A stretch of 38,164 bases of DNA from an uncultured Bacilli bacterium (GTDB taxonomy: Bacteria > Bacillota_I > Bacilli_A > RF39 > UBA660), in the NCBI GenBank assembly GCA_947627385.1, contig CANQVV010000003.1:1-38164 (forward strand). The letters run 5' to 3'. Made by a program: the position numbers and the translations under genes. This document shows, in pieces, positions 10,440 to 13,966 of the stretch; the stretch's first letter is position 1, and each line of letters begins with the position of its first letter. A model generated the notes under the pieces. It saw nothing but the letters and a program-made list of their open reading frames with translations, did no database searches and was not told where the DNA came from.

Positions 10440-11396
10440 ATGAATAATAAGGGATTTACATTAATTGAATTATTAGCCTCTATAACAATACTTGCACTAG
10501 TTATTGGTCTTGCCGTACCAAGTATAAATGGTGTTACAAAAATAATTCAAAGAAATCACCGTAATAATCAAATCAAAAATATTGAAATAGCTGCTTCTAA
10601 ATATGCTTTTGATACAAATGAAACATTAATTTTTGTCGATAAATTAGTAACAGAAGGGTATATCACTGCTGATAATGAAGATGGTGATATAAAAGATTCT
10701 TATAATAATGAAAGACTTAATTGTTATTTAGTTAAAATGGAAAAGGTAAAAGATCATTATAATGCTTATTTTCAAGATGGTAATAATTATGATAATGATG
10801 GAGTATGTGATAAAAGTAAACTTAATGAATTACAAGAAGAAATTTTAATTAACGTAACTAATAATGGGGTTAATATAACAGATATAAATAGTTGGTTAAA
10901 AGGTAGTATTACTTTAAGAGCATATAGTAATACTTTGGAATTAAATTGTAATGTTAATAGATGTAATTGGTTAAGTAGTACAGGTGGTTTTAGCAAAAGT
11001 GAAGAAGTAACAATAAATCCTAGTGGTGTATTAGAAACTAGATATACATTTCAAATGGTTAAAGATGAAAAGACAATTAAAAGATATAATAGTAGTATTT
11101 ATTTAAAAATTGATAATGAAAATCCTACTATTTATGAAGATGAAATAAATATAAGAGATAAAAATATTCCTACTAATTCAAAAAGGGTAACTATTTCGGC
11201 CTCAGATGGAAAAGGCTCAGGAATAGCTGGTTATTATTTGGGATTAGATACCGGGGCAACTTGTAGTAATATTTCTCTTTCTTATCAAAAAGAAAATTAT
11301 TTTGATGTGCTTAATAATGGTAATTATATAATTTGTGTTAAAGATAATGTCGGTAATATATCTAGTAGTAGTATAATTATTAATAATATTGTATGA
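10440..11396 (+). CDS. Large pseudopilin with C-terminal Ig-like domain
   Basis: A 318-residue type IV pilin-like protein. The prepilin leader MNNKG precedes FTLIELLASITIL, with Glu at +5 and a hydrophobic helix to about residue 30. The middle is unassigned (DEDGDIKDSYNNERLNCYL). The C-terminal 110 residues look like a bacterial Ig-type beta sandwich (KRVTISASDGKGSGIAGYYLG, NGNYIICVKDNVGN). The size and extra domain suggest a minor or tip pilin with an adhesive end; that is inference. It has its own promoter and ends in TGA. Two smaller pilin genes follow after a separate promoter. Confidence 0.8.
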   Translation: MNNKGFTLIELLASITILALVIGLAVPSINGVTKIIQRNHRNNQIKNIEIAASKYAFDTNETLIFVDKLVTEGYITADNEDGDIKDSYNNERLNCYLVKMEKVKDHYNAYFQDGNNYDNDGVCDKSKLNELQEEILINVTNNGVNITDINSWLKGSITLRAYSNTLELNCNVNRCNWLSSTGGFSKSEEVTINPSGVLETRYTFQMVKDEKTIKRYNSSIYLKIDNENPTIYEDEINIRDKNIPTNSKRVTISASDGKGSGIAGYYLGLDTGATCSNISLSYQKENYFDVLNNGNYIICVKDNVGNISSSSIIINNIV

Positions 11397-11424
11397 TTTT
11401 ATACGTAAAGTTACAACCTTATAA

Positions 11425-11453
11425 TTGACATTAAATCATAATTATTGTAAGAT
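11425..11453 (+). promoter_or_regulatory. Sigma-A promoter of the paired pseudopilins
   Basis: TTGACA (11425-11430), a 17-base spacer, and TAAGAT (11448-11453). Confidence 0.75.
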
Positions 11454-11480
11454 TAATTTAAGAATAGAGGTGAAAGTTTG

Positions 11481-12008
11481 ATGAAAACTTTTAAAGATAA
11501 GAAAGGTTTTACTTTGATAGAGTTATTAGCAGTAATTGTTGTTCTAGCTATTGTAACAGCGCTTGCTATGACTACTATGCTTCCTCTTATGAACAAAGCA
11601 ATTAAAAATGGTTTTGTTGATGAAGCTAATGCTGCAAGAGAAACGGCATCTGATGTTATGACATTAATCGGTATTGGTTCTTTTGATGAACCAGAAGCTG
11701 GCCCTGATTATCAATCCAATGATAATAAAACATGTATTTCTCTTAAACTAATGGCTGAAAGAGGATTATATGAAAAAGATATAGAATATTTCACAAATGG
11801 AGATTATGCTGGAAAGGTAATTATTACTAAATCTGGTGAGAGTAGTAATAATTATACATATAAAGTAGTTATGCATAATGATAGATATTATACTGGCAAA
11901 ACAGATGGCGGAAAAGTTACTGATTCTGATGATGATGTCAAAAATTATGATAAAACTACTTATCCTGATACAACATTTAATTGTACAACTAATGATATTG
12001 GGGACTAA
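11481..12008 (+). CDS. Type IV pilin-like protein
   Basis: A 175-residue prepilin-like protein. The start is ATG 11481 rather than TTG 11478, because GAGGTGA lies seven bases before it. After a ten-residue basic leader (MKTFKDKKG), FTLIELLAVIVVLAIVTALA gives the processing site with Glu at +5 and the assembly helix. The soluble domain has two cysteines (NKTCIS, TFNCTT) and is Asp/Asn-rich. The first 30 mature residues are almost identical to those of the next gene, two bases downstream, so the pair arose by duplication and is probably co-translated from one promoter. Confidence 0.83.
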   Translation: MKTFKDKKGFTLIELLAVIVVLAIVTALAMTTMLPLMNKAIKNGFVDEANAARETASDVMTLIGIGSFDEPEAGPDYQSNDNKTCISLKLMAERGLYEKDIEYFTNGDYAGKVIITKSGESSNNYTYKVVMHNDRYYTGKTDGGKVTDSDDDVKNYDKTTYPDTTFNCTTNDIGD

Positions 12009-12010
12009 TT

Positions 12011-12484
12011 ATGAATAAAAATGGTTTTACTTTAATTGAATTATTAGCAGTAATAGTTGTACTAGCTATTGTAACAGCACTTGCTATGACTACGGTCTTG
12101 CCTCTTGGTGGTGAAGCTCGTGAAAAAGCATTTCGGGTAGAAGCTACCAATGCTATTAAAAGTGCTACAACAGCTTATGAGATGTATAATTTAGGCCAAA
12201 TTAAATTAGATAGTAGTAGTACTGATAAATGTTATAATTCAACAACTAAAAATATGTGTTTTACAATTGATTCATTAATAGATTTAGGATATTATGATAT
12301 GGAAAAAGGTACTTTTACTGGTAGTGTTATAATTAATACCTCTAATGATGAATATACTTTAAATTTAAAGAAAAATGATGAATTTCGTTTTGTGGGATAT
12401 AATTTTAAAGATTATAGTAAACAAGGTGAAATAAATAATGAAGATTGGGCTACAACATATAATAGTTGTTCTTGTAGTTCTTAA
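12011..12484 (+). CDS. Type IV pilin-like protein
   Basis: A 157-residue prepilin-like protein with leader MNKNG and FTLIELLAVIVVLAIVTALA, the same N-terminal helix as the gene just upstream. It then diverges: AREKAFRVEATNAIKSATTAYEMYNLG is a typical alpha-1 helix extension, followed by a cysteine-containing beta domain (DKCYNSTTKNMCF, NSCSCSS). The start overlaps the upstream stop region (two-base gap), with GGGGA as SD. A strong terminator follows. The partner secretion ATPase, prepilin peptidase and platform protein are not in the window. Confidence 0.83.
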   Translation: MNKNGFTLIELLAVIVVLAIVTALAMTTVLPLGGEAREKAFRVEATNAIKSATTAYEMYNLGQIKLDSSSTDKCYNSTTKNMCFTIDSLIDLGYYDMEKGTFTGSVIINTSNDEYTLNLKKNDEFRFVGYNFKDYSKQGEINNEDWATTYNSCSCSS

Positions 12485-12506
12485 CTAGGATAATCCTAGT
12501 TTTTTA
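12483..12506 (+). terminator. Terminator after the pseudopilin pair
   Basis: AACTAGGA (12483-12490) pairs with TCCTAGTT (12494-12501), followed by T's. Confidence 0.88.
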
Positions 12507-12542: not shown

Positions 12543-12571
12543 TTGATTTATAAAATTATTTAATTTATAAT
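12543..12571 (+). promoter_or_regulatory. Sigma-A promoter of the tyrS leader
   Basis: TTGATT (12543-12548), a 17-base spacer, and TATAAT (12566-12571). The transcript would begin near 12578, immediately before the T-box Stem I. Confidence 0.78.
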
Positions 12572-12577
12572 TTATTT

Positions 12578-12739
12578 AATTAGTGATGAGAGAACTTACA
12601 ATTCTTGAACTAAATCGGAGCAATTCGTTAAATTTGATAAGTGTATGATGAAATTCATAAATTAAGGTGGTACCGCGGGTAATCTCGTCCTTAAACCTTG
12701 GTTTTTGAATTTTTTTAATTTTAGAAGGAGAAGAGATAA
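12578..12739 (+). promoter_or_regulatory. T-box leader of tyrS with very short Stem I
   Basis: The T-box sequence AAGGTGGTACCGCG is at 12664-12677. TTAAGG (12662-12667) pairs with CCTTAA (12689-12694) as the antiterminator-type stem, and its TGGT bulge fits the ACCA end of tRNA-Tyr. Upstream, TTAGT (12580-12584) pairs with ACTAA (12609-12613), and AGAA with TTCT inside, leaving a loop that contains TAC, a Tyr codon (12597-12599). Only about 85 bases separate the predicted transcript start from the T-box. No clear intrinsic terminator follows. Instead ATCTC-G-TCCTT (12682-12692) can pair with AAGGA-GAA-GAGAT (12725-12737) over the tyrS SD. The T-box call is firm; translational control is inferred. 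Confidence 0.85.
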
Positions 12740-13966
12740 ATGAAATGTTTTGAAGATTTACAATGGCGGGGGCTTATAAAAGATGTGAGCAGTCCAGAAT
12801 TAGAAAAAAAATTAAATGAAGAAAAATTAACTTTCTATATTGGTACTGATCCAACTGCTGATTCAATGCATATTGGTCATTTTTCATCATTTTTAATTGC
12901 TACTAGATTGGCTAAATATGGACATAAACCAATTTTATTAATTGGTGGGGCAACTGGGTTAATCGGTGATCCAAAACCTTCAAATGAAAGACAAATGATT
13001 ACAAAGGAAGAAGTTTTAAAAAATGTAGCCGGATTAACTAAACAAGCCAAGGAAATATTTGGCTTTGAAGTAGTTAATAATTATGACTGGACAAAGGATT
13101 TATCAGTATTAGATTTTTTAAGAGATTATGGTAAATATATTAATGTTAATTATATGTTAGATAAAGATATTATTAATAGACGATTAGAATCTGGTATTAC
13201 ATTCTGTGAATTTGCTTATACTATTTTACAAGGCCTTGATTTTGTTCATTTGTATAAAGATAAAGGCGTAACTTTACAAGTAGCGGGTTCTGATCAATGG
13301 GGAAATATTACCACAGGTATAGAACTAGCTCGTAAAAAAGAAGATGTTGAATTATATGGAATGACTATGCCTCTTGTTTTGGATGCCAATGGTGTTAAAT
13401 TTGGTAAAACTGAGGGTAATGCTTTATGGTTAGATAAAGAAAAAACATCTAGTTATGAATTATATCAATATTTAATTAACACTAGTGATGAATGTGTTAT
13501 TAATTATTTAAAAATGTTGACTTTCTTAACCAAAGAAGAAATAGAGAAAATTGCCAAAGAACATCAAGAAAAACCAGAATTAAGAAAAGCCCAAGAAATT
13601 TTAGCCAAGGAAATTATTACCTTTTTACATGGGGAAGAAGAATTTAATAAAGCTCAAATGATGAGTAAGGCATTATTTACCGAAGAGGTAAATCAATTAT
13701 CTAGTGAAGATATTTTAAATAATTTTAAAGATATGGAACATATTAATATTTCCGAAGAATTACCTCTTGAAGATTTACTGGTAAATGGTGGTATATGTAG
13801 CAGTAAAAGGGAAGCAAGAGAGCTTATTAGTGGTAATGCTATTAGTTTAAATAATCGTAAAATTACTGATAATAAGTATCTTGTTAAAAAAGAGAATGCT
13901 ATTGATAAAAAAGTATATGTTATAAAGAAGGGTAAGAAAAAATATTATTTAGGAATTTTTGAATAA
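12740..13966 (+). CDS. tyrS: Tyrosyl-tRNA synthetase
   Basis: A 408-residue class I aminoacyl-tRNA synthetase that charges tRNA-Tyr with tyrosine. The HIGH motif is MHIGH (43-47) and the KMSKS-type motif is KFGKT (220-224). The substrate-binding loop QVAGSDQWGNI is at about 180-190. A C-terminal S4-like RNA-binding domain runs from about 340 (LEDLLVNGGICSSKREARELI). Length is normal. The SD AAGGAG (12725-12730) lies ten bases before the ATG and can be paired by the upstream T-box region, so expression probably responds to uncharged tRNA-Tyr. Confidence 0.97.
   Translation: MKCFEDLQWRGLIKDVSSPELEKKLNEEKLTFYIGTDPTADSMHIGHFSSFLIATRLAKYGHKPILLIGGATGLIGDPKPSNERQMITKEEVLKNVAGLTKQAKEIFGFEVVNNYDWTKDLSVLDFLRDYGKYINVNYMLDKDIINRRLESGITFCEFAYTILQGLDFVHLYKDKGVTLQVAGSDQWGNITTGIELARKKEDVELYGMTMPLVLDANGVKFGKTEGNALWLDKEKTSSYELYQYLINTSDECVINYLKMLTFLTKEEIEKIAKEHQEKPELRKAQEILAKEIITFLHGEEEFNKAQMMSKALFTEEVNQLSSEDILNNFKDMEHINISEELPLEDLLVNGGICSSKREARELISGNAISLNNRKITDNKYLVKKENAIDKKVYVIKKGKKKYYLGIFE

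Follow-up and report, generated by a model that had tools for sequence, protein, structure and literature searches.

A predicted transcription-attenuating T-box with an ultrashort Stem I and inverted terminator wiring in front of tyrS in an uncultured Bacilli bacterium

The leader of the tyrosyl-tRNA synthetase gene tyrS in the 38,164-nt stretch of DNA analysed here (the window) is very probably a transcription-attenuating T-box that combines an exceptionally small tRNA-binding domain with termination whenever tRNA support is missing. Its Stem I, only about 34 nt long, lies at the 5′ end of the RNA and contains a K-turn; with no Stem II in between, a IIA/B pseudoknot follows, and then Stem III and the antiterminator. 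In the proposed mechanism, uncharged tRNA-Tyr would make two contacts, one between its anticodon and the UAC of the Stem I apical loop and one between its ACCA end and the UGGU in the T-box bulge. These contacts would hold Stem III and the antiterminator helices A1 and A2 together (the ON state) and keep 12651–12668 away from the terminator arm. With charged tRNA or none, 12695–12712 would capture 12651–12668; the resulting intrinsic terminator, with U7 at its end, would halt transcription ahead of tyrS (the OFF state). From the leader sequences we infer tRNA binding, the sensing of charging, termination itself and the direction of control. All features described below lie on the forward strand.

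The gene at 12740–13966 encodes a protein of 408 aa that matches the tyrosyl-tRNA synthetase family TIGR00234 of NCBIfam with 381 bits (cut-off 113.8), and an Rfam scan of the window places the T-box family RF00230 at 12577–12695 (64.1 bits, E 9.6e-14). This score lies below the gathering score of 93, a curator's threshold rather than a biological feature; about 70 positions of Stem I are absent from the leader, and the low score accompanies the lack of its distal part. Further Rfam hits, to snoRNAs among others, are weak (E about 1–9) and were taken as chance. The stretch 12662–12694, AAGGUGGUACCGCG, carries the UGGN bulge and both antiterminator helices, with A1 formed by 12662–12667 and 12689–12694, the bulge UGGUACC at 12668–12674, and A2 formed by 12675–12679 and 12684–12688; A1 and A2 both contain pairs that change on both sides among related leaders. 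The genome's tRNA-Tyr has the anticodon GUA and the discriminator A73, which fit the UAC specifier and the U of UGGU, and the specifier thus agrees with both the downstream gene and the genomic tRNA. Judged by sequence, specifier and discriminator, the tyrS leader is a T-box, and the original prediction of a T-box on tyrS is borne out by the RF00230 and TIGR00234 matches together with the fit of UAC to the tRNA. A Shine-Dalgarno (SD) sequence, AAGGAG, is read at 12725–12730. The genome itself is a 1.16 Mb draft, 71% complete, and it belongs together with its relatives to what we take to be the GTDB order RF39. Just 5′ of the tyrS unit, at 10440–12484, three ORFs with GFTLIEL starts lie in a row; these starts are presumably prepilin-like.

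A pattern scan locates a promoter at 12543–12571, with a −35 hexamer TTGATT (12543–12548), a 17-nt spacer and a −10 hexamer TATAAT (12566–12571), matching at 10 of 12 positions. Taken alone this is weak evidence, as the region contains four promoter-like sites against a shuffle mean of 2.7. The call becomes convincing because the position of the −10 hexamer, 7–9 nt 5′ of the Stem I base helix, is kept in 29/29 aligned leaders (TATAAT in 28, TAAAAT in one); in the window, Stem I starts 8 nt past the end of the −10 box. Transcription would thus begin at about 12578. A transcription start that looks fixed at Stem I leaves no space for a long Stem I, and a much longer leader is further disfavoured because the terminator scan finds the terminator of the upstream gene at 12483–12501.

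The comparison draws on relatives of the window genome. tyrS was found in 55 of the 60 relatives searched, and the best 30 loci were fetched, the window's own among them and every one from the same genus. The relatives found through tyrS are MAGs from gut and rumen that bear the names Bacilli, Bacillales, Erysipelotrichaceae or Tenericutes. The element lies at most 420 nt from the start codon in 28 of these 30 loci; in L021 it stands before an intervening gene, and in L020 (genome G035), where tyrS sits directly behind another ORF, no T-box is present within 420 nt of tyrS. The extra ORF of L021, at about 1000–1500 between the ultrashort T-box and tyrS, encodes by eye what we take to be a CYTH-type protein. 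The structural alignment comprises 29 leaders, 25 from same-genus loci and four from other genomes. The near-copies L016 and L018 of L015 were excluded from both alignment A1 and alignment A2, L021, L033, L088 and L092–L094 were excluded from alignment A2, and L020 is in neither. Across the 29 leaders, 99.2% of the cells of the ON-state structure are paired and nine pairs change on both sides. Shuffles, which keep the column make-up but not the relatedness of the leaders, give a mean of 2.6 such pairs, with 0/500 reaching nine, and slid structures, which keep relatedness, are 38–47% paired.

Stem I (12580–12613) consists of a base helix (12580–12584 with 12609–12613) and an upper helix (12590–12594 with 12602–12606), documented in the alignment by pairing in 100% of cells in both helices and by two-sided changes in 4/5 base-helix and 2/3 upper-helix pairs counted. 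Between them lies the K-turn, GAUGA (12585–12589) with GA (12607–12608), which has GA at the end of its 5′ side in 29/29 leaders and GA on its 3′ side in 28/29. The 7-nt apical loop CUUACAA (12595–12601) presents the tyrosine specifier UAC at 12597–12599 and follows the consensus YUUACRA in 29/29 aligned leaders. The promoter and an RNA start directly at a very short Stem I, of about 35 bases with TAC in its loop, had both been predicted, and the comparison supports them, with 34 nt as the length and conserved −10 placement and two-sided base changes as the evidence. Only 2 nt separate Stem I from IIA in the 29 aligned leaders, leaving Stem II absent. In the IIA/B pseudoknot (12616–12637), IIA pairs 12616–12617 with 12626–12627, and the loop 12618–12625 pairs with bases at about 12630–12637. 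The IIA pairs are invariant in the aligned leaders. Coevolution documents the loop–linker pairing, which is stronger for own than for swapped partners (−2.84 versus −1.03 kcal/mol; 24 distinct leaders, 0/20,000 permutations) and is weak in the window's own copy (−0.5). Stem III (12644–12659) pairs UAUGA (12644–12648) with UCAUA (12655–12659) and is flanked by the purines AAGUG and AA; in the 29-leader alignment, 96.6% of its cells are paired and zero pairs change on both sides.

Beyond the antiterminator, the original prediction had found the usual terminator missing and only a tiny AAAC-CTTG-GTTT stem before the T's. That stem has a predicted energy of 0.0 kcal/mol and was rejected as the relevant structure; the same bases serve as the 3′ arm of a hairpin of 17 pairs followed by U7. 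The hairpin (12651–12716) joins a 5′ arm at 12651–12668 with a 3′ arm at 12695–12712, its U tract occupying 12710–12716, has a predicted energy of −20.9 kcal/mol alone, and is contained in the leader's minimum-energy fold. Its wiring appears inverted. According to two papers (PMC7583486, PMC10907184), the 5′ arm of a standard transcriptional terminator consists of the 3′ strands of A1 and A2; here it consists of the Stem III 3′ strand, the A1 5′ strand and the first U of the T-box bulge, and the hairpin encloses the A2 hairpin. When both wirings were scored by the platform script in the tyrS element (L004), the 5′-side arm reached −17.1 kcal/mol and the arm from the 3′ strands only −2.8 kcal/mol; the canonical terminator, with a 5′ arm made of the A1 and A2 3′ strands, is thus not what this leader contains. 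The terminator stem of the window and of its closest relatives is A+U-rich with one U–U mismatch, and the terminator scan, with a loop limit of 3–8 nt, omits the hairpin, whose loop is longer. In some leaders (e.g., L087) A1 can persist within the terminator hairpin, and in these only Stem III would be displaced.

The case for this terminator rests on comparison and not on energy, because the whole-leader fold is not unusually stable relative to shuffles (z −0.69) and is uninformative. At the decision point, the free-RNA OFF fold is computed at −30.1 and the constrained ON fold at −20.2; tRNA would need to overcome an OFF advantage of about 10 kcal/mol, and a free RNA favouring the terminator hairpin would fit a T-box that is OFF by default. 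The two arms coevolve. In a test with fixed arm lengths over 26 leaders hand-chosen for differing arms, in which the script-picked arm of L010 is not its best, own arms pair at −10.17 versus −5.96 kcal/mol for swapped arms (0/20,000 permutations); the own 5′ arm is the best partner of the 3′ arm in 14/26 leaders, and some foreign 5′ arm is better in 12/26. With the A1 bases left out, an earlier set of 12 diverged leaders gives −9.7 for own versus −6.2 for swapped arms (0/10,000); in that analysis the 3′ arms of L087, L092, L093, L094 and L109 extended into a second T run. At least five U residues follow the terminator arm in 35/36 leaders, and four in L093. The 5′ arm is nearly invariant within the genus, and the coevolution signal comes mostly from other genera.

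The original prediction had instead cast the leader as a translational T-box, in which charged tRNA would let 12682–12692 pair with 12725–12737 and hide the SD, and uncharged tRNA would keep the anti-SD strand in A1/A2. Its arithmetic holds: the pairing (spanning 12682–12737) can form in the window with 10 bp, at −10.0 kcal/mol as a duplex and −7.0 kcal/mol as a hairpin alone, and published ultrashort Stem I elements accompany translational control. We nevertheless consider this reading very unlikely and the pairing incidental. The terminator is far more stable (−20.9 versus −7.0 kcal/mol) and its arms coevolve, whereas the SD and anti-SD arms pair no better with their own than with swapped partners, either in the 12 diverged leaders (−6.4 own versus −6.7 swapped) or over 36 leaders (−6.6 own versus −7.0 swapped). 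The ATCTC/GAGAT extension of the window is not common to other leaders, and conservation does not extend beyond CCUU/AAGG. In L021, moreover, a different gene comes after the T-box, such that the nearest SD is not that of tyrS, and the terminator arm and a U8 tract are retained. Covariation among relatives' leaders had been suggested as a check on SD pairing, and it picks out the terminator arms; likewise, the sequence predicts termination before 12720, the very outcome that the original prediction had set against itself. As far as sequence can decide between the two readings, a coevolving terminator and a non-coevolving SD pairing do so.

An intermediate scheme, in which termination is the main control but the SD of read-through transcripts can also be paired by the A1 3′ strand once this is freed, is unlikely in our view: a terminator that takes the A1 5′ strand does free the A1 CCUU for any SD AAGG, and the window permits this, but pairing past CCUU/AAGG bears no sign of selection. 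Least credible of all is a decayed, constitutive leader that has lost tRNA sensing, shrunk its Stem I and kept a weak terminator. It would account for the loss of both known tRNA-augmenting modules, yet different genera conserve Stem I, the K-turn, UAC, IIA/B and the T-box bulge and show compensatory changes in them, the specifier and the bulge still fit tRNA-Tyr, and ultrashort leaders of the UAC type also precede other genes.

The terminator side was scored by script in 39 T-boxes of the order, comprising the nine of the window's own genome (the tyrS element included) and 30 of 98 from 10 further genomes, and in 30 class controls taken from the 121 T-boxes of eight other genomes of the class; the loci classified were mostly the best-scoring fetched ones, and neither set is random. 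Within the order, 26 have the terminator arm on the 5′ side and 9 have it on the usual 3′ strands, with 2 ties and 2 in which the script found no arm; for the class controls the corresponding counts are 4, 22, 1 and 3. All nine own-genome T-boxes (L001–L009) use the 5′ side, either the Stem III side or the T-box sequence; in L002, L005, L007 and L008, as in the tyrS leaders L202, L203, L205 and L209, the 3′ arm largely complements the T-box sequence around AAGGNUGGUACC. That this wiring belongs to the order alone is less tenable given the 4/30 class controls with a 5′-side arm, among which L269 looks genuine and L261 reflects a misplaced U tract. In L269, which comes from another lineage of the class (genome G048), the terminator likewise lies on the Stem III side (a −17.3 versus b −6.7 kcal/mol).

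Of the 80 tyrS loci taken from named genomes, 62 match the leader model and 26 show both features used to define an ultrashort Stem I; an earlier regular expression for such leaders proved too strict (9/62) and was replaced. At E 1e-11 the model hits 15/395 genomes of the class, all of the same family, a strict threshold that may miss diverged copies. Ultrashort T-boxes of many specificities throughout the order were also considered, as 188/193 genomes match model R1 at E 1e-6, and rejected because most of the weaker matches inspected have a longer Stem I and owe their alignment to the 3′ half of the T-box. A pattern search allowing two mismatches gave hits in 44/146 genomes, many of them probably by chance. 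Three tyrS T-boxes from beyond the order, L244, L254 and L247, have a long Stem I; by eye they also possess a Stem II, a short one in two cases. Inside the order, leaders such as L108 have a long Stem I seemingly without Stem II. Taken together, these T-boxes suggest a stepwise loss, Stem II first and the distal Stem I afterwards.

Tyr-type ultrashort leaders also occur where the next gene is not tyrS (L190, L191, L195, L196, L198, L200, L101 and L079). By eye, we take the genes that follow to encode HAD-like hydrolases, aminopeptidase-like and dUTPase-like proteins, and others. T-boxes with a longer Stem I are found about 500–1000 nt 5′ of tyrS, before a gene that by eye is deoC-like (L051, L097, L108, L078, L049 and L104), hinting at a tyrS operon. 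In the glyS leaders L009 (own genome), L270, L271, L273 and L274, the −10 box adjoins a very short Stem I with GGA or GGC in its loop, and L275 is a leader of this kind before another gene. No Stem II and no IIA/B were seen in these six leaders, which are perhaps among the smallest T-boxes.

In the published account, specifier–anticodon pairing is strengthened by a Stem I elbow module, a Stem II S-turn or both (PMC10482949). A review (PMC7583486) reports that tRNA binding by a truncated Stem I is very poor when Stem II is missing, and that T-boxes acting on transcription depend in general on the elbow module to be fast enough. The affinity problem posed by the loss of both strengthening modules might be solved by the likeness of the specifier loop to an anticodon loop. 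The loop order Y-U-codon-R-A (29/29 leaders) equals the order C-U-anticodon-A-A of the genome's own tRNA-Tyr, and all 29 leaders have U just before UAC; in the long-Stem-I tyrS leaders outside the order it is A in L244 and L254 and U in L247. A tentative, rather doubtful extension is a fifth, transcriptional T-box architecture in which loss of the elbow module and Stem II is offset by a Stem I that copies the anticodon stem-loop. The T-box and tRNA-Tyr would then contact each other through their loops, as two tRNAs with complementary anticodons do, and form up to 5–6 pairs (UUACA of the window against UGUAA). Against this, A37 may carry a modification that blocks the additional pairs, and a loop length of 7 nt is not clear for some of the ultrashort Gly leaders.

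A natural, conserved T-box that has neither module and carries a predicted terminator puts the published rules to a direct test, and raises the question of how little RNA suffices for tRNA recognition while transcription is under way. Its inverted wiring would show the same sensor coupled to termination via the opposite strand. For annotation, the Rfam threshold misses the tyrS leader, and anyone looking for a terminator of the usual kind would label it translational, as the earlier reading did.

T-boxes were sorted into four classes in a 2023 paper (PMC10482949), and the comparison below follows that paper and the review PMC7583486. Like class I (Bacillus subtilis tyrS), the leader has UAC, a K-turn at the Stem I base, IIA/B, Stem III, the UGGN bulge, tyrS downstream and predicted transcription termination. 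Unlike class I, it has a Stem I of 34 nt in place of a long one with an elbow module, has no Stem II (PMC10482949), and draws its terminator 5′ arm from the 5′ side of Stem III/A1 and not from the A1/A2 3′ strands (PMC7583486). With class II (B. subtilis glyQS) it shares the absence of Stem II and transcription termination, but that type has a long elbow-module Stem I and glycine specificity, whereas the window's leader is ultrashort, tyrosine-specific and keeps IIA/B (PMC10482949). The likeness to actinobacterial ileS leaders noted in the original prediction stands for the ultrashort Stem I and fails for Stem II, which those leaders need: as in class III (Nocardia farcinica ileS), a short Stem I without elbow module carries an apical-loop specifier, a K-turn and IIA/B follow the same plan, but class III requires a Stem II with an S-turn for tRNA binding, is mostly translational and has a loop of 5–6 nt (PMC10482949). 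The window, by contrast, has 2 nt between Stem I and IIA, a 7-nt loop, tyrosine specificity, a Bacilli host and predicted transcription termination, a terminator taking the place of SD sequestration, for which a pairing is possible yet not coevolving. Class IV, defined by an intermediate Stem I with a side-bulge specifier, differs from the 34-nt Stem I with its apical-loop specifier. Because each class has a stated feature that the tyrS leader does not show, it falls outside classes I–IV of the 2023 paper, and on the sequence evidence it is probably a transcriptional T-box that has neither the tRNA-elbow module nor Stem II. In open-licence PMC papers we found no report of a transcriptional T-box that combines a short Stem I with the absence of Stem II, and none of the inverted terminator wiring. 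Within the order, the glyS leaders L009, L270, L271, L273 and L274 differ in having a Gly codon (GGA/GGC) and no IIA/B seen, and resemble the tyrS leader in a promoter that adjoins a short Stem I, a codon in the loop, the absence of Stem II and a terminator arm on the Stem III side.
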